Shown one piece after another: positions 14,719-63,057 of a DNA stretch of 64,000 nt. Position numbers and translations under genes: made by a program. How positions within the stretch are numbered: the stretch's first letter is position 1; each line of letters starts with the position of its first letter. This stretch comes from Aciduliprofundum sp. MAR08-339 (GTDB lineage: Archaea; Thermoplasmatota; Thermoplasmata; Thermoplasmatales; Aciduliprofundaceae), in contig NC_019942.1 in the NCBI RefSeq assembly GCF_000327505.1, forward strand, positions 62,001 to 126,000. The letters run 5' to 3'. The notes beneath the pieces were generated by a model. It saw only the letters and a program-made list of their open reading frames with translations. It was not told the DNA's origin and did not search any database.

Positions 14719-14724
14719 TTGAAA

Positions 14725-17700
14725 TTGCCAAGTCCATATCTTAGCAGGATAAAACTCGAGAAAGAGTTAGAGAAAAGGGCACAGGAAATTAAGCAAAAAA
14801 GGGAGAGGTCAGAGAAACTCATAAAGGATATTGAATCTGGCCTAAACATTCTCAAAAAATATGTGGATGTGGGGACATATTTAAATGATTTCAAAAAGGC
14901 CAAGGATGCCTTTTCAATCAAGGATTTTGATAAGGCACTTGGAATCCTAGAACCAATGTTCACCAAGCTGAGCAGTGAGGCCACCAAGGTATTTGAAGAG
15001 AACGAGAAAAAGATCGCCAAACTTCTTTCCTCCGGAAAAATAGAAGATTCTGCAAAAATAAAGGCGAATATGGATGAGGCAAAATCCAAACTCTCCACAA
15101 ATTTTGTTGAAAGTTTGAACATAATGGAAAACATTTCATTGCAGATTTCATCTTCCCTAAAAGACCTTGCGGAAAGAAGGAGAAGAGAGATACTCGCAAA
15201 AATAACGGGTCTTGAAAATTTTGAGGATATAAAAGAGGAAATTGAAAAAATCAGCGGTTCCTCTCTGGAAATACTGGATTCCCTAGAAAAAATTGAGAAA
15301 AAGATAAGGGATAGGGTAAAGAAAATAATGAATGAGAAAATAACCGAGGCAGACAAGCTCATAGCCATAGCAAAATCAGCCCACTACACCCTACCTGTGG
15401 ATGAGGGCAAGAAAAACGATGCTGAAAATGCGCTGAAAAACGGAGATTTCCCCGCAGCGATAAGGGCCTCCAACGAGTATCTCAAGGATACAAAAAGCGC
15501 ATTTAAGCTGTTCTTCACCAAGATTATAGACATATCCAAGATCCTGATCGGAGAAGGGGAAGCGATGGGGGAGGATATGAGCGGTCCCAAATCCCTTCTG
15601 GAGAGGGCAAAGGAGGCCTATGAAAAAGAAGAACTTGAAGAGGCCGTGAACCTTGTAAGAAAGGCCACCGAGGAAGCCGAGAAAATAAAACTCAGAAAGG
15701 TCATGGACCTCATAAAAATAGCAAGGGATAGACTTCTGGAGGCAAAGAACAACGGCATTGACATAGGCCCATATCTATCAATGATAGAGAATGCAAGAAA
15801 TTTCATAAAAATAGGCAAGCACAAAAGGGCCTACGATACTGTGCAAAACGCCATAAATATGGTTGAGAGGAGAGTAAATCTTTATTCACAACTCAAAAGT
15901 GAGATAAAGGAACTGAAGGATACCATTGAAGGTTTCAAAAGGGAAAACATAATTTTGGAGGGGGTTGAGGACAAACTTGCTGATATTGAGAAGAAGGTGG
16001 ATGAAAAGCCAGAGGATGCAGAGAGGATGATAGATGACCTGAAAAATTTAATCAAGGTAAACATCAGGGAAATAGCCACCTCCCTAACCCAGGAAATAAA
16101 CTCCAGGATATCCAAGGCCCAGGAGGCGGGAATTGACCTTGAGGATTTGAAAATCGAGGTTGACAACACCTACAAATTAATTGAGGAGGAAAATTACAAG
16201 GATGCCATAATAACCCTTCGTAAGATTGAGGAGAGATTGTACACGAACATCCTTGATTCAATAAAATCCCGCATCTCAGATTTTGAGAAATACGAGGAGT
16301 TAAAAAGAGAGCTGGAAGATCTCAAAAATTATGTGGATTCAGGGGATATAGATAGCTCTCTTGAAAAGGTAAAGGCCATGGAGAGTGAGGTTTTCAAGAT
16401 AGAAGCAAAGAAATACGAAGATATGCTGATTGACTTGGAGAGCAAGTGTGACTTCCTCAGATCTCTCGGAGAGGACGTATCAAAAATAGAGGAGTACATA
16501 AACTCCGCAAGGAATGCTCTTAATTCCAAGGATCTTGGAAAGGTAGAAGAACACGTTAAGGAGGCAAGGGCACTTATTGAGACATTTTCAAAGAGCATAG
16601 CACAGAGAGCATTTGAATCCGCAAAGGATTCCCTAGACGATGCGATCAGAGCCGGCATAGACGTGAAGAAAAATGGAATAGAGGATATGCTCACTGAGGC
16701 TGAAAAATGCCTTAAAAACGGAGATTACCAGGGAGTTCTTGAACACACATCCAAGTTGAAGAAGTTGGTGCAGGAACTTATTGGTAAAATTAAGAAATTG
16801 GATGAGAGAAGAGGTGCACTTGAAAACAGATTGGAAGAACTAAGAGATATGGGGCTGAAAGTTAATGAACTGGAAAAACTGCTCAAAGATATAGAGAGGG
16901 AAATCAAAGAGAACAACTTTGATTCTGCAGAAGAATTAACAAATCAGGGATTTGAGAGAGCAACTCTTATCCAACTGGAGGAGAAAATAGAAGCCCTGAA
17001 AGATGAAATAGAAGCGCTGGGAAGAATAATGAGGGATTTCAATTTGAGAAAGGAGTACCTGAGCATAACTGGAGAGTTCTTTTTGAAGTACAGGAATAAG
17101 GAGTATGAGGCTCTTGAAGAGGTGGGAAAAGAGACACTTGAAAAATTGAGAAAATCTGTGGAGAAGGTGTTTGAAAATTACGTTTCTCAGATTGAGAGTA
17201 TGGTTCAGGATCTTCAGGACATGGGTGCAACCATCAACACAAAACCAATCAGGGAAGGAAAAGAGATGTTCTGGGGAGGAGACATCATAGGCGCATTTTC
17301 CATCCTAAAGAAATTTGAGGAGGATGTGAAGAGAATTCACGGAGACAAGATGAAACTTCAGGAGATTGAAGATAGGATCTCCTCCCTCCTGGCAATAATG
17401 TCCTCTCTGGGTCTGAACTCTGACAAATTTGCAGAGAGGATAAAAGAGATTGAGGAAATTGAAGATAACACAGAAAAAATAAGCAAACTTGAAGAACTCC
17501 TAAAGGAGTTAGAAGATGCGATAAGAGAGAAGATAAATGCCATCCTTTCCACCGTAGAAAATGAACTTGACAAAATGCGCAGGATGGGAGAGGATGTGAC
17601 TGCGGCCGAGGGCATGATCTCACGTGCTAGAAGCCAAATGAACCAAGGAAATTATAAGACTGCACTTTATTTGATGTTTGAAGCCCTAGAAGAGGTGGAG

Positions 17701-19482
17701 AATATTGAAATGCAAAAGAATACTGCCTATGAAATGCTCAGGACCACGGAGATGAAGATAAAGAGCATGGGTCGTTTACTTCCTCCAGACATAATAAAGG
17801 AATACAAGAACGCAAGAATTCTATTTTTAAATGAGAGGTACAGAGAAGCCATACACAGAATCTTGGAGATAAGTGAGAAACTATGGAGCATTGAAAGGAC
17901 CATATACATCATAAAGGATAGAAATGCCAAGATAAAGGTTTACATCCAGCAAGCCAAGAAGAAGGGCATAGATATGAAGAATGTGCTTCTCTCGCTGGCA
18001 AGGGCAAAGAGTGAACTTCAGAAACTGAATTACGAGGCGGCACTGAGGTTTGTTAACGATGCATACAAGAGGGCAAGGAGATCAATTGAGAGTACGAAGG
18101 AGCAGTACAGGGTAAAATATGAGCCACTTTTGAAAATGCTCATCGAGTTCGATCTGCGCGATAAATTTGGAGATCTGGTAAAGTCCATCGACGAGGCCTT
18201 TGAAAAAGATGACATATCAAGGGCGGAGAGCCTGATAAACCAGTTAAAGGTAGAGATAGATAATGCGTTGAAAGAAAGGATGAGAGCCTTTATGGATGAA
18301 TTTGAAGAGAGGAGAGCCTTCGTAGAAAACTCGTCTCTCAGAAACAAGATCAATCTTGCGGAGGAGAGGAGAAAACTTGAAGAACTAATGAAAAATCCAA
18401 GAGATTTCTTTAAAAATTTTCCCAAGGTTATGGAGAAGGTGGATTCCATCATCCCTGAAATTCTAAAAAATTACATAGATGAATTCGTAGAGAATGTGAA
18501 AAACTTTGAAAAAGCAGGAGTGAGTGTTTCGGATTACATTGAAAAGGCAAAGGACCTGGCAGATAAAATAGGAGAGAGAGATTACAAGGAGATTATGGAA
18601 GACCTTCAATCCCTTAAAAATAACTTTGAAGTTTACATTGATGAGTATTCCAAGGAGAAAATGCAGCGTTCTTTATCCATGGTTGCAAAGTACAGCAAGA
18701 AGAAAGCCGAGGAGTTCAAGGAGAGAATGGAGGAACTATACCAGAAAAAGGATTATCTCAACCTGATCAAATTGACTGATGAGGCCATATCCTATGTAGG
18801 CAACTATAGAAATCTTGTAAGCAGGTTCAACACAAAGGCTCTCAGCCTTAAGGATCTGATAAAGCGTGCCATTTCCCTGGGTTTGAATATGGATAAGCAG
18901 ATAAAAAAACTGAAGGTTATTCTCGCCTCTCCAGAGGATCTTGAAAAGGCCATCGAGAAGATGGATGTAATTGCCAATGAGATAAACGAGGAAATTGACA
19001 AACTAAAGCCGGAGATAAGGGTAACGATAATGAATGCAAACAAGACGGATGACAGGTACATGGTCAAACTTGAAATAAAGAACACAGGAAATGTGGATGC
19101 AAATAACATATCCATCACAATGAACGGGGCTTTGAACACCGATAAGCCAATAGGGGTTGTGAAACTTGCAAAATCAGGCACCGAATACGTGGATACGCTA
19201 TTAACTCCGGGAGAAGGGGATGCTGTGCATATAAATTTAAAATATCAGAGGTTCGATAACAGGGAATATGAAGAAGAAATAACAACAAAGTTCAAGGTAA
19301 GCAAGAAGGGATTCCACATCGAGAAAAATAAGGAGAAGGTTAAATGTACTCTATGCCGTGGTACAATACTTCCAGGACTGGATATTGTGGTATGCGACAA
19401 CTGCGGTGCCGTTTATCATCTTCCATGTGCCAAGAGAGTGGGCAAATGCTTAAAATGCGGCACACCATTCAACTTCGAGTGA
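14725..19482 (+). CDS. Giant helical-repeat (spectrin/TPR-like) protein with CARDB-like and RING-like zinc domains
   Basis: 1585 residues, rich in Lys and Glu, no signal peptide or membrane segment, so cytoplasmic. Residues about 45-1430 are some 23 degenerate repeats of roughly 55-65 residues. A unit reads helix, a Gly-[IL]-[DN] or Gly-Glu-Asp turn, a helix of the form [IL]xxA+xxL, then Gly-[DNK]-[YF]xxA and a third helix; clear copies start near 15735, 16107, 16633, 16831, 17569 and 17945. Residues ~1430-1525 look like a CARDB/Ig-type sandwich (VKLEIKNTGNVDANNISI). The last 45 residues hold C-x2-C, C-x2-C-x4-H-x2-C and C-x2-C as in prokaryotic RING fingers. TTG 14725 is set by GGAGGT. Function unknown; its place behind ftsZ suggests a cytoskeletal or division role (inference). 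Confidence 0.85.
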   Translation: MPSPYLSRIKLEKELEKRAQEIKQKRERSEKLIKDIESGLNILKKYVDVGTYLNDFKKAKDAFSIKDFDKALGILEPMFTKLSSEATKVFEENEKKIAKLLSSGKIEDSAKIKANMDEAKSKLSTNFVESLNIMENISLQISSSLKDLAERRRREILAKITGLENFEDIKEEIEKISGSSLEILDSLEKIEKKIRDRVKKIMNEKITEADKLIAIAKSAHYTLPVDEGKKNDAENALKNGDFPAAIRASNEYLKDTKSAFKLFFTKIIDISKILIGEGEAMGEDMSGPKSLLERAKEAYEKEELEEAVNLVRKATEEAEKIKLRKVMDLIKIARDRLLEAKNNGIDIGPYLSMIENARNFIKIGKHKRAYDTVQNAINMVERRVNLYSQLKSEIKELKDTIEGFKRENIILEGVEDKLADIEKKVDEKPEDAERMIDDLKNLIKVNIREIATSLTQEINSRISKAQEAGIDLEDLKIEVDNTYKLIEEENYKDAIITLRKIEERLYTNILDSIKSRISDFEKYEELKRELEDLKNYVDSGDIDSSLEKVKAMESEVFKIEAKKYEDMLIDLESKCDFLRSLGEDVSKIEEYINSARNALNSKDLGKVEEHVKEARALIETFSKSIAQRAFESAKDSLDDAIRAGIDVKKNGIEDMLTEAEKCLKNGDYQGVLEHTSKLKKLVQELIGKIKKLDERRGALENRLEELRDMGLKVNELEKLLKDIEREIKENNFDSAEELTNQGFERATLIQLEEKIEALKDEIEALGRIMRDFNLRKEYLSITGEFFLKYRNKEYEALEEVGKETLEKLRKSVEKVFENYVSQIESMVQDLQDMGATINTKPIREGKEMFWGGDIIGAFSILKKFEEDVKRIHGDKMKLQEIEDRISSLLAIMSSLGLNSDKFAERIKEIEEIEDNTEKISKLEELLKELEDAIREKINAILSTVENELDKMRRMGEDVTAAEGMISRARSQMNQGNYKTALYLMFEALEEVENIEMQKNTAYEMLRTTEMKIKSMGRLLPPDIIKEYKNARILFLNERYREAIHRILEISEKLWSIERTIYIIKDRNAKIKVYIQQAKKKGIDMKNVLLSLARAKSELQKLNYEAALRFVNDAYKRARRSIESTKEQYRVKYEPLLKMLIEFDLRDKFGDLVKSIDEAFEKDDISRAESLINQLKVEIDNALKERMRAFMDEFEERRAFVENSSLRNKINLAEERRKLEELMKNPRDFFKNFPKVMEKVDSIIPEILKNYIDEFVENVKNFEKAGVSVSDYIEKAKDLADKIGERDYKEIMEDLQSLKNNFEVYIDEYSKEKMQRSLSMVAKYSKKKAEEFKERMEELYQKKDYLNLIKLTDEAISYVGNYRNLVSRFNTKALSLKDLIKRAISLGLNMDKQIKKLKVILASPEDLEKAIEKMDVIANEINEEIDKLKPEIRVTIMNANKTDDRYMVKLEIKNTGNVDANNISITMNGALNTDKPIGVVKLAKSGTEYVDTLLTPGEGDAVHINLKYQRFDNREYEEEITTKFKVSKKGFHIEKNKEKVKCTLCRGTILPGLDIVVCDNCGAVYHLPCAKRVGKCLKCGTPFNFE

Positions 19483-19486
19483 TTCC

Positions 19487-20974
19487 ATGCTACAAAAAAG
19501 ATTTGGACTGGCAAAAATTACGGAGGGAGAAATAACAACTCCCGGGCTACTCAAGGTGGGAGAGGACATAGAATTCAGGAATAACTCATTCCGATTCCTG
19601 GATTTTGAAATTGAGAGGGATGTGCTCTTCTCTCCATTATTCAAGGAGAGAGAAATAAAAATAAAGGAGAGCATTTACCTTGTTCCAAACATTCTCACCA
19701 TGCTCAGGAACACAAGGGATCTTGTGGATTTTACCATTGATTTGAGGGAAAGAATAGGTTACGACAAACTTCTTTACGCTCCCGGCACTCCTCCACACCT
19801 GTTTCCAATAATGGTATATCTGGGCTACGACCTATTTGACAACTCCATTGAAAAGATGGATGAATACTCATTCCTTGGACCGGGAAGGGGCATTGATAAC
19901 TTTTCAGAACTCATGATCAAGCAGGTAAGAATTGCCCTGGAAAACGGGAATCTCAGAGAACTGGTGGAGAGCGTTCCAAACGTAAAGGCAAAGGAGATTC
20001 TGAGGTACCTAGATATGAAGTACTACCACATCCAAGAGAGATTCTATCCAGTGTGGTCCAGAACGCTCAAGGCAGTTTCCCTGGATTCTCTTTTCAGACC
20101 GGATATTCAGAGATGGTTGGAACGTTTGAGGGAGAGATACAAAAAACCAGATTGGGCAAAATACCTTCTTCTCATACCCTGCAGTGCGAGAAAACCATAT
20201 TCGGAGTCCAGAAGCCACAGGGAGATGAGGTTGTATATAAAGAGCACAATGCATGAGGTCATACTCACTTCCCCACTAGCCCTCGTTCCCAGAGAACTTG
20301 AAAGGTTCTATCCTGCCCAGAATTACGATATACCTGTGATCGGACACTGGTACGAGGATGAGAAGAAAATTATAGAAGAAAATCTACGATGGTACCTGGA
20401 AAACAATGAATACGAAGGAATAGTCTCCTTTCTCCCCGAAAGCATGAAATTCTTGGAAAAATTGCTTAACGAGTTCGGTGTAGTACAGATATGGGGCAAA
20501 GATTTTGAAAATCTTGAAAAAGAAACGAGAAAACTCGGATACCATGTACCCAGAGGAAAAATGGAACTGGAAAACATGAAATCCCTTGCAAGATTCCAGT
20601 TTGGAACCTGTGAGGATATGCTTGATGGAGCAAAGATAAAGGGCAGGTACCAGCAGATCAACATCTGGAAGGATGGAAAAAGATTATTCGGGTACAATCC
20701 GGAGAAGGGTATGCTCACCCTAACTGAGGAGTCCGCAAAATGCTTGCTCTCTGAGGGTAAGTACATTGTAGAAATAGACGACTTCTACCCGGAGGGTGAT
20801 GTTTTTGCCGCTGGTATAAACTATGCTTCCGAGGAGATTAGGGAGGGAGACGAGGTTGCGATCGCCCACAAAAATGAGTTAAGGGGATGGGGCATTGCAA
20901 GGATGAGTTCCTGGGACATGGTGGAGCAGAGAAGGGGAAAGGCCGTGAAACTTAGAGGGAGGGTCAAAGGTTAA
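19487..20974 (+). CDS. arcS: Archaeosine synthase ArcS (TgtA2)
   Basis: 495 residues. The catalytic-core signature LLIPCSARKPYSESRSH is near residue 230, and a PUA RNA-binding domain fills the C-terminus (GDVFAAGINYASEEIREGDEVAIAH...GWGIARMSS). ArcS converts preQ0 at tRNA position 15 towards archaeosine. Its ATG lies four bases after the stop of the giant repeat-protein gene, so it is probably on the same transcript, although no functional link is obvious. It overlaps the end of the polB gene on the other strand by 4 bases. Confidence 0.9.
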   Translation: MLQKRFGLAKITEGEITTPGLLKVGEDIEFRNNSFRFLDFEIERDVLFSPLFKEREIKIKESIYLVPNILTMLRNTRDLVDFTIDLRERIGYDKLLYAPGTPPHLFPIMVYLGYDLFDNSIEKMDEYSFLGPGRGIDNFSELMIKQVRIALENGNLRELVESVPNVKAKEILRYLDMKYYHIQERFYPVWSRTLKAVSLDSLFRPDIQRWLERLRERYKKPDWAKYLLLIPCSARKPYSESRSHREMRLYIKSTMHEVILTSPLALVPRELERFYPAQNYDIPVIGHWYEDEKKIIEENLRWYLENNEYEGIVSFLPESMKFLEKLLNEFGVVQIWGKDFENLEKETRKLGYHVPRGKMELENMKSLARFQFGTCEDMLDGAKIKGRYQQINIWKDGKRLFGYNPEKGMLTLTEESAKCLLSEGKYIVEIDDFYPEGDVFAAGINYASEEIREGDEVAIAHKNELRGWGIARMSSWDMVEQRRGKAVKLRGRVKG

Positions 20975-22719
20975 AACCACTGCTTTATAGGACTCACCCC
21001 GAATGGCTCAAATGTGCGATTTATTGTTTCATCGTACAGTTTCAGATAATAATTCACATCGACATCCTTGGGGTGAACCATCTCAATTGGTCTTGCCCTG
21101 TGGGTTGGACCTCCAGCTCCACGAACAATGGCAATGTAAATGTACATACCCCTGTGAACTTCAATCCCAAAATTCTCCATCAGCAATCTCGCAGCGACAC
21201 TCGCCTTTGTGGCCTTCTCATACTCCTCTGGCTTCTTGGTCATCTGCTCCACAATTGCAATTTCTTCAATTTCAAAATCAAAACCACTTATCCTGCGACG
21301 GTACTTATTTCTTATACTTCTTGCCTCATCGTACTCACCCTTCAAAAGATGCTCAACAACTGACCTCTGGGCCTCCTTTATTATGGAAGGGTAATCCCGG
21401 CGTATGTATTCAAGCCCAACCCCGTAAACCTTTTCGGATGATAGATGTGCGTATTTTTTCTTGCTCCAGTAAACTGCCCTATCTGCAATTCTCTCAAACT
21501 CCAGATCCAGTGGAAGGGAGGAATTTATATCTTCCAAGATCCTATCAACATCACCACCAGTGAACTGGATGCCATCCGTGTCTATATATATCACCTTACC
21601 ACCCATGCCCTCTATCCTTTTCTTCACCTCCTTTATATAGTATCTCGCAAGGGCTGCTATAAGCTGCGCTGCATTTCTATTGTAGTAAGTGGCTCCATTC
21701 CACCCCATATAGCCGTACATGGCATTTGCCATAACCTTCAATGCTCTCTGCTCAGCATCCAGCTTCTTGCTGTATTTATCCCTCAATATCTTTTTAATTT
21801 CCTGCCTTCTAATTAAAAAGTCTTCAATAAGATGAGGTATGACTCCCTGAAAATCCCTCCTTACCCTGTGTCTTGTACCCTCAACCTCAACCATTTCGCC
21901 CTCCCCCATATCCACAGTTTCGGGACTTATGTTCCATACCCTGATTATGCTCGGATACATGCTCTGGAAATCAAGATACACGACACTCTCATAAACTCCA
22001 GGAGATTTAAGATACACGTACCCTCCCTCGTATCTACCCTTTCCCCCAACCCTTATCTTCCCTATTTTTCTCTTTTCCATCTCCCTTTTCACAAGCACAT
22101 CTATGAGTTCTCCCACAGTCATTCTCGTCTGTCTGTGCAAGGGCACACCCGTGATTTCACTCAAACTCTCCTGGAAAGGTAGAATCTCAGAGGAAATTTT
22201 TTCCACAATTGAAATGTAATCCCTCGCATATTTTTCCATATCTTCCTGTAACAGATCCTTCAGTTTGAACTGGAAAATCCTCTTGAATTTAAGACCGACC
22301 GCACCCGCAAGTTCGTCAATATCCTTCGTTGGGAGATTTGGAAAATCGCGCCAAGCTATGGAAAACATATCAATATTCTCCCTTCCATGAATTTTTGTTT
22401 CCTTTAAAATTATGCCCCTGAAATATTTACCGGAAAATTCAATTTCACTTCCATCTCTCCCAAGATTCAATGGAATCCCATACATTCTTGATCTTTCTTT
22501 GAGAAGTGGAAAATCCTCAGAATCCTGCCTGAATCCTATAACCCTGTCGGGATCATAGGCCTTGAATATCTCAACAAATCTTTCAATAATCTCGCGTTCT
22601 CCACCATCCAGAATCTCAAGGTTATCGCTTTTCACCGCAATGAGATTTATTCTATCCCTCTTGGGATTTATGTAATTGCACTCCGTTCTTGAAAATACCT
22701 TGAAATACAGGGTTCTCAT
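20971..22719 (-). CDS. Short family B DNA polymerase with degenerate exonuclease
   Basis: 582 residues against about 770-800 for replicative archaeal PolB. The polymerase motifs are intact: A, YLDFQSMYPSI (Asp250); B, KVMANAMYGYMGW; C, YIDTDGI (Asp380, Asp382); and WSKKKYA. The N-terminal ~120 residues that hold the uracil-sensing domain are absent. The Exo I D-x-E is replaced (YFKVF, residues 5-9), Exo II keeps Asp66 but its Asn is Arg64, and Exo III is off register (YARD). It is therefore probably a non-proofreading polymerase, possibly for repair or translesion synthesis, resembling the PolB2 class but with catalytic residues kept. A TATA-like TTTTAATATC lies upstream. Confidence 0.88.
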   Translation of the reverse strand: MRTLYFKVFSRTECNYINPKRDRINLIAVKSDNLEILDGGEREIIERFVEIFKAYDPDRVIGFRQDSEDFPLLKERSRMYGIPLNLGRDGSEIEFSGKYFRGIILKETKIHGRENIDMFSIAWRDFPNLPTKDIDELAGAVGLKFKRIFQFKLKDLLQEDMEKYARDYISIVEKISSEILPFQESLSEITGVPLHRQTRMTVGELIDVLVKREMEKRKIGKIRVGGKGRYEGGYVYLKSPGVYESVVYLDFQSMYPSIIRVWNISPETVDMGEGEMVEVEGTRHRVRRDFQGVIPHLIEDFLIRRQEIKKILRDKYSKKLDAEQRALKVMANAMYGYMGWNGATYYNRNAAQLIAALARYYIKEVKKRIEGMGGKVIYIDTDGIQFTGGDVDRILEDINSSLPLDLEFERIADRAVYWSKKKYAHLSSEKVYGVGLEYIRRDYPSIIKEAQRSVVEHLLKGEYDEARSIRNKYRRRISGFDFEIEEIAIVEQMTKKPEEYEKATKASVAARLLMENFGIEVHRGMYIYIAIVRGAGGPTHRARPIEMVHPKDVDVNYYLKLYDETINRTFEPFGVSPIKQWF

Positions 22720-22749
22720 AATTCAAAATCCACTAAAAGATATTAAAAT

Positions 22750-23682
22750 CTATCGCAAATTCAAGTAGGAAGTTAACTGCTTCATCACCATCCTGATCTC
22801 TTCTTCACCAGGAAGGTTGGGGTAATTGTAAATCATGCCACCCGGTCTTTCATTGTAAAAAGGTCTGTTGCAACCCGGGCATCCAGAGGTGAGAAAAGGT
22901 ATGCCCCTGAGCACATTTCCCATCTCATCCTCCGGAATGGAAATGCTGGATATTTTGCCATCTTCAAACTCTGCAAATTCCCGGTAACCCTTGAAGATAA
23001 GGTACCTTGAAAGCTGTATGGCACGGTATCTCCCTACAGGAGGGGCAGACCCTCCAAGAACCGGAGTGTAGGAGAAAAGAGCCACGGTTATGCCAATCTC
23101 GTACAATTTCTCCATAAGGGTATAAATATCCAGATCCTCCTCGCCAAGACCAACAATGAGATGGGTATTGGCAGCACCGAAAATTTCCCTAGCCTGGAGC
23201 AATGCGTTCCAATGAGAGGACCAAGTAAAGCGATTTCCGACATCCTTACCCTTAACCCTGTCAAATAGTTTCGGATTGGCAGCGTCAAGGGCTATGCTGA
23301 GAATTTCCACGCCTGCATCCCTAAGTTTTTTCATATCTTCACGGGAAATTGGAACTATTGAAACCGAAACGGGTATATCTGGCAGAATTGGAAGTATGCT
23401 CAAAAGATCCTCCACAACCTCCGGATAATCAAGGGTTTGAAAGCATATACGGGAGAATCCACGAATGTTTTTAAGCACGGAGACATGGTATTCGGGCCAG
23501 AGAATTCTTGAAAGATATCCCTCCCTCCTGGCATCCCTTCTTTGAGAGCAAAACGAGCAGTTGGATACGCATTTCTCCCCCAGCATAATGTATGCTGTTG
23601 TGGGCTCTGCAAGCATCCTGCCCCTGTGCAATCCCATCTTAACCGCTGTACCATAGGATAAACGAATCCTTATGGGCTTCAT
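22750..23682 (-). CDS. Radical SAM enzyme, biotin/lipoate-synthase-like
   Basis: 310 residues. CVSNCSFC (about 38-45) is the CxxxCxxC site for the SAM [4Fe-4S] cluster. A second Cys pair near the C-terminus, SGCPGCNRPFYNERPGG, suggests an auxiliary cluster or substrate-binding site. Overall resemblance is to archaeal biotin-synthase-like proteins, some of which act as the two-component lipoyl synthase (LipS1/LipS2); that specific role is a hypothesis. It overlaps the trmY stop by 4 bases and is third in the SRP54-trmY operon. Confidence 0.78.
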   Translation of the reverse strand: MKPIRIRLSYGTAVKMGLHRGRMLAEPTTAYIMLGEKCVSNCSFCSQRRDARREGYLSRILWPEYHVSVLKNIRGFSRICFQTLDYPEVVEDLLSILPILPDIPVSVSIVPISREDMKKLRDAGVEILSIALDAANPKLFDRVKGKDVGNRFTWSSHWNALLQAREIFGAANTHLIVGLGEEDLDIYTLMEKLYEIGITVALFSYTPVLGGSAPPVGRYRAIQLSRYLIFKGYREFAEFEDGKISSISIPEDEMGNVLRGIPFLTSGCPGCNRPFYNERPGGMIYNYPNLPGEEEIRMVMKQLTSYLNLR

Positions 23683-61873: not shown

Positions 61874-63057
61874 TTCAGCACCCCCAGTTCCCTATGCTTC
61901 TCGGCAATATTCTTCGCAAATTCATCTATCTTCTCATAATCCTCTTCCTTTGGCAAACCTTTGATTAGGAGTGGATCAAGCAATTCAACCTTCAACGCGC
62001 CAAGATTCGCCTTGAGTATGTCCACCGTTCTCCCGCCCCAGCCATAGGAGCCCATTATTCCAATGAACTTGGCCTTGGGTTTTAGAGCATTTATCAAGTA
62101 GGCAGCGTAAACAGCATTTGGGTGCGGTCCGGATAGCATCGTTGGTGTTGCCAGAACTATTGTGGTGACATCCACCATATCCATGGCAAACTCTCCCATA
62201 TCCACAGTTATCAAATTCCTTATCTTTACCTCAACCCCCAATTTGTTGAGCTGATGGGCCAGATAATTTACCATTAATTTTGTGCTGCCATGCATTGATA
62301 CATAGCCTATGAGAACCTCGTTCTTTGTTTCAGGGGAGATCCATTCCTTGTAGGCATCAATTATGAACTTTGGATCGCTGTATGCGGGTCCGTGGCTCGG
62401 TGCAATTATCTTCGGGTCCAAATCCTCAATTTTCTTTATGTTCCTCGCTATTATGTGGCGGAATGGCATCATTATCTCCGCGTAGTATCTCTTCGCCTCA
62501 TGATAGATGCGGTCGTACTGCTCCGCAAAGGTGTGTGTCGTCGCCGCGTGAGAGCCGAAGAAATCACAGGTAAAGGCAATGCGCTCCTCAACGAGGAATG
62601 TGGTCATAGTTTCCGGCCAGTGAACCCATGGCGTCATGTAGAACTTAAGTGTTCTGTCCCCAAGGGAGAGTTCATCACCCTCATTTATTACGAGGAAAAC
62701 ATCATCTTTTAGATGAAGGAGATCCTCCTCAAAGCCCTTGCACTTTGCGTTGGTTACAACCTTCGCATCGGGATACCTTTCAAGAAGCATGGGTATTGAG
62801 CCGGAATGATCCTGCTCGGCATGATTGGACACTATGTAGTCAATCCTTTCAACACCCAGATCCCTCAAATTCAAAAGCAATTCATCAACTCTTTCGGGTT
62901 CCACTGTGTCAATAAGTACCGTTTTTTCACTGCCCTTAACAAGGTACGAGTTGTAACTCGTACCCTGCGGTGTGGGAACTATCTCATCAAATAGAGTACG
63001 TTCCCAGTCAATCGCTCCAACATTGTAAACCCTGTCACTTATCTTTCTCACTGGCAT
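61870..63057 (-). CDS. fprA: Flavodiiron protein FprA (O2 reductase)
   Basis: 395 residues. Lactamase-like domain with diiron ligands in SNHAEQDHSG and the later Asp of TCDFFGSH and His of APSHGPAY; flavodoxin domain from about 250 (VLIGYVSMHGSTKLM, ATPTMLSGPHPN). Reduces O2 (or NO) to water with electrons from rubredoxin. GGTGGAT before ATG 63057. Rubredoxin is encoded immediately upstream. Confidence 0.95.
   Translation of the reverse strand: MPVRKISDRVYNVGAIDWERTLFDEIVPTPQGTSYNSYLVKGSEKTVLIDTVEPERVDELLLNLRDLGVERIDYIVSNHAEQDHSGSIPMLLERYPDAKVVTNAKCKGFEEDLLHLKDDVFLVINEGDELSLGDRTLKFYMTPWVHWPETMTTFLVEERIAFTCDFFGSHAATTHTFAEQYDRIYHEAKRYYAEIMMPFRHIIARNIKKIEDLDPKIIAPSHGPAYSDPKFIIDAYKEWISPETKNEVLIGYVSMHGSTKLMVNYLAHQLNKLGVEVKIRNLITVDMGEFAMDMVDVTTIVLATPTMLSGPHPNAVYAAYLINALKPKAKFIGIMGSYGWGGRTVDILKANLGALKVELLDPLLIKGLPKEEDYEKIDEFAKNIAEKHRELGVLK

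Follow-up and report, generated by a model that had tools for sequence, protein, structure and literature searches.

A short B-family DNA polymerase of Aciduliprofundaceae that lacks the N-terminal domain and appears to have lost its proofreading site

Gene and protein architecture

The stretch of DNA analyzed here (the window) comprises 64,000 nucleotides, positions 62,001 to 126,000 of contig NC_019942.1, from Aciduliprofundum sp. MAR08-339, whose genome is a single contig of 1,437,090 bases. At 20971..22719 of the window, we identified an open reading frame (ORF) that starts with ATG and encodes a B-family DNA polymerase of only 582 amino acids (aa), as recognized by Pfam, an AlphaFold model, and structure alignment. 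The gene and all the features of its product given below lie on the minus strand. In Pfam, the protein matches DNA_pol_B (2.6e-41) and part of exo1 (profile positions 143-231 of 242). Its closest solved relatives by sequence are the PolB enzymes of Thermococcales, with that of Pyrococcus abyssi at 255 bits.

The AlphaFold model, made with 22 sequences, has a predicted local distance difference test score (pLDDT) of 92.3 and a predicted template modeling score (pTM) of 0.85. The top matches to this model in Foldseek and VIA-align were the 9N and KOD polymerases (TM score of 0.89 by query length), and VIA-align superposed residues 1..579 of the model on residues 135..754 of the 9N chain (Z of 28.2, 2.8 Å, 566 residues). 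As residue 1 of the model aligns to residue 135 of the KOD and 9N polymerases, the protein starts at the Exo I strand and the N-terminal domain is absent. This agrees with a preliminary description of the locus, made from the DNA letters and translated ORFs, which placed the start of the protein at Exo I. The uracil pocket of KOD polymerase is described as formed by residues 7-119 (PMC8596578), all of which fall in the missing part, so the pocket is absent from the short polymerase. A defining feature of PolB3, the N-terminal domain with its uracil pocket, is thus lacking.

The missing domain is not an artifact of the 5′ end. The intergenic gap of 30 bases upstream of the gene (22720..22749, no strand) contains an in-frame stop two codons 5′ of the ATG, and immediately beyond it ends lipS2, a lipoyl synthase gene (22750..23682, minus strand). 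An N-terminal domain would not fit in this space, as the preliminary description had also argued. A sequencing error or a lost 5′ end, which that description had named as a possible flaw, is ruled out by intact copies in eight other genomes that begin at the same residue; the open frame 5′ of the start extends over 2-29 codons in these copies and over one codon in the window copy. We also considered a split polymerase with its N-terminal domain encoded elsewhere and rejected it, as a search of the genome with PF03104 found just the short polymerase and a 779-aa PolB, although a highly diverged domain could escape this model.

Distribution and conservation

Orthologs were searched for in 61 related genomes, 18 from the family Aciduliprofundaceae and 43 from the remainder of its order. 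The gene is present in 10 of the 18 family genomes, namely in all those of genera g1 (4/4), g3 (1/1), and g4 (4/4), in one of eight in g2, and not in the single genome of g5. The best match in the 43 other genomes of the order (151 bits, 30%) was to a full-length PolB, so there is no ortholog there. A sample of 389 genomes of the phylum gave 13 matches at E <= 1e-44, a threshold at which more diverged short forms would go unlisted; the short form was found in three, all of them family members, and the other ten matches were longer PolBs with open frames of 690-839 aa.

Of the ten copies, one from a metagenome-assembled genome (L011 in G013) is broken by a stop and was excluded from all alignments, which leaves nine orthologs including the window protein. 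These nine intact proteins are 581-583 aa long; identity to the window protein is 58-68% among the other eight, with the ortholog of G003 at 67%. Mean pairwise identity is 63% in residues 37-190 of the exonuclease-like domain, compared with 71% in the palm and fingers. Rates of nonsynonymous (dN) and synonymous (dS) substitution were compared for the three unsaturated pairs. The dN/dS values were 0.098/1.323 in the exonuclease-like domain and 0.047/0.985 in the polymerase domain for L004/L006, 0.101/1.245 and 0.049/0.939 for L005/L006, and 0.031/0.194 and 0.027/0.233 for L004/L005. With dN well below dS in both domains, purifying selection acts on both, including the exonuclease-like one. The short polymerase is therefore a conserved family within Aciduliprofundaceae, which could not be seen from the window alone. 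In the open-access literature, no title or beginning of an abstract describes this family; paywalled work and supplements lay outside this search, and earlier trees may hold the gene as PolB2 or PolB3.

The former exonuclease site

The exonuclease-like domain (residues 1-190, 22150..22719) retains its fold but not its catalytic residues, according to Pfam, the AlphaFold model, and the structure and ortholog alignments. Its residues 37-190 nevertheless contain 44 invariant columns out of 155 across the nine orthologs. The catalytic Asp of Exo I, whose position we take to be that of KOD D141, is replaced by Lys in 9/9 orthologs (K7, 22699..22701). The same Asp is present in 6/7 full-length PolBs of the phylum and in 16/16 PolBs of the order, while the two Thermococcales rows of the alignment did not reach this position. 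In all nine orthologs, Leu, Ile, or Phe takes the place of the Exo I Glu, Lys or Arg that of the Exo II Asn (R64, 22528..22530), and Tyr that of the Exo III Asp (Y168, 22216..22218). The second Asp of Exo II (D69, 22513..22515), conserved in 9/9, is the sole Exo carboxylate retained; D66 is likewise kept in 9/9.

Three of the four carboxylates of Exo I-III that are expected of a PolB3 are hence replaced in every ortholog, and loss of the exonuclease active site is a trait the short polymerase has in common with PolB2. The preliminary description had read Exo I as FKVF in place of FDIE and the Exo II Asn as Arg, and both readings extend to the whole family. It had also considered Exo III to be off register. 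The loss of the Asp is real, and re-registering the motif offers no rescue, as residue 167 is Asp in just 3/9 orthologs (Asn in two, Glu in two, and Lys in two) while Tyr168 is invariant; we therefore rejected a shifted Exo III. Alignment recovered D69 alone among the Exo carboxylates.

From these motif states, the proofreading site appears to be lost and the protein is predicted to be inactive as an exonuclease. The invariance of Lys and Lys/Arg across the orthologs suggests a reversal of charge at metal-binding or substrate positions, not simple decay, and these basic residues may bind DNA or form salt bridges with D66 and D69.

The polymerase site and the C-terminal tail

The polymerase domain, with palm, fingers, and thumb, occupies residues 225-582 (20974..22047), as delimited by Pfam, the model, and the alignment. 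Alignment located motif A (YLDFQSMYPS, residues 248-257, 21949..21978), motif B (KVMANAMYGY, residues 328-337, 21709..21738), and motif C (IYIDTDGI, residues 377-384, 21568..21591), the last with both Asp kept, and the positions of all three were checked; the KxY motif (KKKY, residues 420-423, 21451..21462) was found in the same alignment. The motif A Asp, the K..N..YG of motif B, the YxDTDG of motif C, and KKY are all intact in 9/9 orthologs, which all carry the B-family signatures DxxSxYP, KxxxNxxYG, YxDTD, and KxY. The claim of the preliminary description that motifs A, B, and C retain their catalytic Asp is thus true of all nine orthologs. The polymerase site appears intact, and we predict that the protein is active as a polymerase.

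The protein ends in the dipeptide WF (20974..20979), which is invariant in 9/9 orthologs; the last block of the model is of low confidence, with a pLDDT of 44. It resembles the end of the tails of two relatives, QQSLEKWF in L039 and QSDLSWWF in L062, which are similar to the PCNA-interacting protein (PIP) box. This resemblance suggests that WF could be a minimal contact with the sliding clamp.

Other polymerases of the family and its order

Also encoded in the genome of the window are PolD (DP2) and a 779-aa PolB that is full-length and keeps its Exo motifs, so the short polymerase need not be the replicase. The short polymerase and this 779-aa PolB share a genome and membership in the B family, but the latter is full-length with an intact exonuclease, and its type is only ~27% identical to the short polymerase in the polymerase domain. 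Exo III of the 779-aa PolB has the form YCxxD, and its YC is shared by 16/16 of the order's PolBs of this type. We initially labeled the type PolB3, and dropped this label because the YC of Exo III fits a Delta-like B4 group that has been reported for Thermoplasmatota (PMC7544198). From this motif we tentatively assign the 779-aa PolB to B4, although the cysteines in Exo I and motif A given for B4 in the same report were not seen in the short motif stretches of the 779-aa type.

PolB2-type genes were found in 0/18 family genomes, as were Y-family polymerases; 8/43 other genomes of the order had a Y-family match above the cut-off and one more had a match below it. The DNA lesion tolerance of four g2 genomes (G004, G008, G010, and G012) is not explained by the polymerases considered here. 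In the order's family f6, genomes G022, G040, G046, and G057 have a Y-family polymerase, and neither PolB2 nor PPB2 was found in them. This pattern hints that PolB2 and Y-family polymerases may substitute for each other within the order. Both occur together in G025, G031, G042, and G060.

Comparison with PolB2

PolB2 was long thought to be a dead enzyme, its motif C being altered along with its exonuclease. A second PolB is present in 36/43 genomes of the other families of the order, with open frames of 628-734 aa (one is listed as 693 or 1005). We read the motifs of 19 of these 36 PolB2 and of two haloarchaeal PolB2. The first Asp of motif C is absent in 19/19 of the former, with His for Tyr in 18/19, and in 2/2 of the latter. 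Motif B is K..L/V..FG in 19/19 PolB2 of the order, as opposed to K..N..YG in the short family, and where PolB2 has a motif C with a replaced first Asp (HxxxD), the nine short orthologs all have YxDTD. However, some PolB2 from TACK archaea are reported to retain DxD and a more complete, inactive exonuclease fold (PMC11791011), so a canonical motif C alone is not decisive against PolB2. The short polymerase is similar to these TACK enzymes in both respects as they are described there; theirs were picked for nearby iRadA and PPB2 genes, and our comparison is with their description only.

PolB2, PPB2, and iRadA form the published partner set (PMC11791011, PMC4104785). Small PPB2-like genes lie immediately 5′ of PolB2 in ten aligned loci of the order, and a PPB2 (arCOG07300) profile built from these ten genes found PPB2 in 35/43 other genomes of the order compared with 0/18 family genomes. 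A D(K/R) motif of PolB2 is reported to contact PPB2 (PMC7544198, PMC11791011). We found an Asp ahead of a Gly pair before motif A in 21/21 PolB2 (19 from the order and two haloarchaeal), followed by Lys or Arg in 17/21, which appears to be this published motif. The D(K/R)GG motif was not found in the short family, which has Y(E/T)GG in 9/9 at this place, like the two Thermococcales rows. The short polymerase is consequently not a typical PolB2 of its order.

Loss of the exonuclease is a point of likeness. PolB2 enzymes are described as having lost their exonuclease motifs as well, and those that were tested as active extenders; Sulfolobus Dpo2, in particular, is described as having robust polymerase activity and no exonuclease, and as extending both mismatches and primers that end at a lesion (PMC8764526). 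An 'inactivated' family is the subject of PMC2527604, and PMC3984812 and PMC4153887 are likewise cited. The statement in the preliminary description that PolB2 is usually impaired at the polymerase site instead of the exonuclease did not hold, given the Dpo2 report, and the short polymerase resembles PolB2 more than that description implied. With the Dpo2 mutasome and archaeal PolB2 in general it shares a lost exonuclease site, the position of a second PolB beside a replicase, and a presumed translesion role; it differs from them by its YxDTDG and Y(E/T)GG and by the PPB2 result for the 18 family genomes.

Three side observations concern other PolB genes. One PolB2 was 29.5-33.2% identical to PolBs of haloarchaeal plasmids among the best 20 of 130 records. 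Loci L049-L051, L056, L059, and L060 have short diverged ORFs of ~119-192 aa 5′ of PolB2 and PPB2, possibly iRadA genes in an extreme state of decay. In L066 (G018:C24), a PolB frame of 1119 aa has its Pfam match split at profile positions 203/229 by ~330 codons, perhaps by an intein near motif C.

Phylogenetic placement

We built a main tree from 53 sequences and 351 columns of the polymerase domain and a second tree, with crenarchaeal PolB3 added, from 39 sequences and 346 columns. Among the nine phylum loci L038-L046, L040 and L044 were excluded throughout (no ORF passing the motif screen), and the divergent L046 contributed to the motif table and not to the trees; the main tree also omits the near duplicates L022, L057, and L067. 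The second tree and two additional sequence sets used 12/19 PolB2 of the order, and the second tree and one additional set used 6/16 B4-like sequences. PolB3 was represented by two Thermococcales, one crenarchaeal, and six PolB3-like Thermoplasmatota sequences, a sample so small that 'Thermococcales' means the nearest among few.

In the main tree, the short family forms a single clade (100/100) with a long stem of 1.19 substitutions per site. Maximum likelihood (ML) placed it with Thermococcales PolB in both trees, with moderate to weak support (85.6/70 in the main tree and 81.1/55 with crenarchaeal PolB3), within a split of PolB3, PolB2, and the short family from all the others (91.7/91 and 92.5/96). 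Grouping with the organism's own B4-like 779-aa type was rejected by the approximately unbiased (AU) test in the crenarchaeal-PolB3 set (p=0.0085), but not in the main set (0.062) or an additional set (0.27). In the set without an outgroup, grouping with the full-length PolBs of the phylum was borderline (p=0.05).

It is possible, although we consider it doubtful, that the short polymerase instead split off early within the PolB2 lineage, as a sister of the known PolB2, that it kept a canonical motif C and lost or never had iRadA and PPB2, and that it does PolB2-like work without a mutasome. The AU tests never rejected this sister position (p of 0.50, 0.57, 0.48, and 0.47 across four sequence sets), and it had the best likelihood, by 2.0 log units, in the set without an outgroup. 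The TACK PolB2 with DxD and a fuller exonuclease fold would fit such a branch, as would the predicted active PolBs with a PPB2 gene in two Methanocella species, described by Makarova et al. as a sister group of PolB2 (PMC4104785). The phylogeny suggested in the preliminary description therefore gives a divided answer, with the ML trees joining Thermococcales PolB3 and the PolB2 sister position standing unrejected.

Other evidence argues against the PolB2 sister position. Identity in the polymerase domain is higher between the short family and the two Thermococcales PolBs (36%) than between it and the PolB2 of the order (25%), the family's motif B is unlike that of PolB2, the D(K/R)GG motif is absent, and PPB2 was not found in the family's 18 genomes. 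DTDG and KKY are common to all nine orthologs and both Thermococcales rows, whereas the phylum PolBs, the B4-like PolBs, and Escherichia coli Pol II have DTDS and KRY. States shared exclusively with the short family numbered six for Thermococcales, three for PolB2, and two for the phylum PolBs in the polymerase domain, and five for the B4-like PolBs, a number inflated because fewer groups were required to differ; in the exonuclease region they numbered four for Thermococcales, four for the phylum PolBs, and two for the B4-like PolBs. This count leans weakly to Thermococcales. In sum of motifs, identity, and trees, the short polymerase is probably derived from PolB3. With the Thermococcales PolB3 (KOD, 9N, Pfu, and Pyrococcus abyssi) it shares the polymerase fold and motifs, including DTDG and KKKY, and the fold of the exonuclease domain, but it lacks two things that they possess, an N-terminal domain containing the uracil pocket and the catalytic acids of the Exo motifs. 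Thermococcales PolB3 also carry a C-terminal clamp box, where the short protein ends in WF only.

Possible function

Starting from the architecture in the model, the motif states, and their conservation under purifying selection within the family, we read the protein as a single-chain, exonuclease-dead, PolB3-like polymerase, truncated where the N-terminal domain would join the exonuclease domain, whose most likely role would be in translesion synthesis or repair, like PolB2/Dpo2 and Pol zeta. We give this reading a probability of about 0.5. The enzyme would be brought to a stalled primer end, possibly through contact of the C-terminal WF with the clamp. There it would extend ends that a polymerase with proofreading would degrade, or fill gaps without proofreading. 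Having no read-ahead pocket, it would also copy through template uracil. What was once the exonuclease domain would serve as a folded scaffold, where the basic K7 and K/R64 may grip the 3′ end or keep it out, in either case with no cleavage. Eukaryotic Pol zeta, as described in PMC7544198 and PMC11791011, is likewise a B-family extender with an inactivated exonuclease domain; however, it has several subunits and a metal-binding C-terminal domain (PMC7544198), and the likeness is one of analogy only.

Several points weigh against an exonuclease-dead translesion polymerase of PolB3 descent. The case is built on the sequence and predicted structure of the protein, with the putative roles of the clamp tail and of the basic residues deduced from sequence. 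The tail lacks the Gln and one conserved hydrophobic residue of a full PIP box. In the crenarchaeal-PolB3 set, the AU test gave p of 0.44 for the PolB3 placement against 0.47 for the sister of PolB2. No conserved operon with repair genes was seen, the neighbors being an arcS-like gene and, in some genomes, lipS2. Finally, our searches of the four g2 genomes mentioned above, which are 93-99% complete, turned up none of the three enzymes (the short polymerase, PolB2, or a Y-family polymerase). The function can therefore be dispensed with, and any replacement of PolB2 and Y-family polymerases is not a strict one.

A bolder form of this reading, which we hold to be tentative, is that the protein is a second archaeal translesion extender, independent of PolB2. 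It would be a PolB3 derivative that lost its uracil domain at the exact boundary, reversed the charge of its exonuclease site to hold a frayed end, kept a canonical polymerase site, docks on the clamp through WF, and succeeded both the PolB2 mutasome and the Y-family polymerases.

Somewhat less probable still is an enzyme with no part in translesion synthesis that fills gaps or acts in base-excision repair, on short patches that call for neither proofreading nor uracil sensing. The same anatomy would serve such an enzyme, and the PolB of Thermococcus kodakarensis is reported to matter for repair and not for replication (PMC6759347). However, work of this kind would not require the loss of proofreading, and PolB2 and Pol zeta, with their inactivated exonuclease domains, are described as extenders (PMC11791011).

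A chromosomal insertion of a polymerase from a virus or mobile element is a very unlikely source of the gene. A casposon of A. boonei is reported to carry a PolB, though of another group (PMC7544198), the gene is patchily present in genus g2, and phage family phrog_262 gives a match of 154 bits, a level expected from the general similarity among B-family enzymes. The constancy of the arcS-like neighbor in eight genomes speaks against this origin. Viral contigs, in a scan that needs exact short patterns, gave one weak relative (25%, residues 226-512); plasmid and phage matches were all <60%, and at most 26.5% among the best 50 of 140 and 84 records; and viral structures fit worse than those of Thermococcales (best E of 1.1e-30 vs 1.5e-43). 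These comparisons gave no support to a viral or casposon origin. A DNA search of phages with the other PolB gave no match, which has no bearing on the short polymerase. The destroyed exonuclease site, the long stem branch, and the broken copy in G013 might suggest a decaying pseudogene or a structural paralog without catalysis. This is equally improbable given polymerase catalytic residues that are invariant in 9/9 orthologs and dN well below dS.

From a biological perspective, these deep-sea vent archaea carry a shortened polymerase with an intact-looking copying site, a lost proofreading site, and a missing uracil sensor, which is probably specialized for damaged DNA. A natural polymerase with a canonical polymerase site and neither exonuclease site nor uracil sensor uncouples two changes that are joined in PolB2. 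It becomes testable whether the loss of proofreading and of the N-terminal domain is enough to make a translesion extender or whether an altered motif C together with iRadA and PPB2 is needed. The family also bears on damage tolerance in an archaeon where Y-family polymerases and PolB2 were not found in our searches. If nested in PolB3, it would have arisen independently of PolB2; if at the base of PolB2, it would be a PolB2 relative without partners.

Neighboring genes

An arcS-like gene (archaeosine synthase alpha; 19487..20974, plus strand) faces the short polymerase gene. Its best model scored 412 bits, under the cut-off of 600 for that model. The two genes are convergent and adjacent in eight genomes, that of the window and seven others. 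The arcS-like gene is outside the polymerase system. Upstream, lipS2 directly precedes the short polymerase gene in the window genome, in G006 and G009, and, judged by its ORF, also in G013; in the other genomes it lies elsewhere, and it is probably a mere transcriptional neighbor.

Beside the arcS-like gene, window positions 14719-19482 (plus strand) encode a highly charged protein of 1587 aa that looks coiled-coil-like by eye and ends in a prokaryotic RING finger (PF14446, 7.5e-14). Comparable long charged ORFs are present in loci L033-L036.

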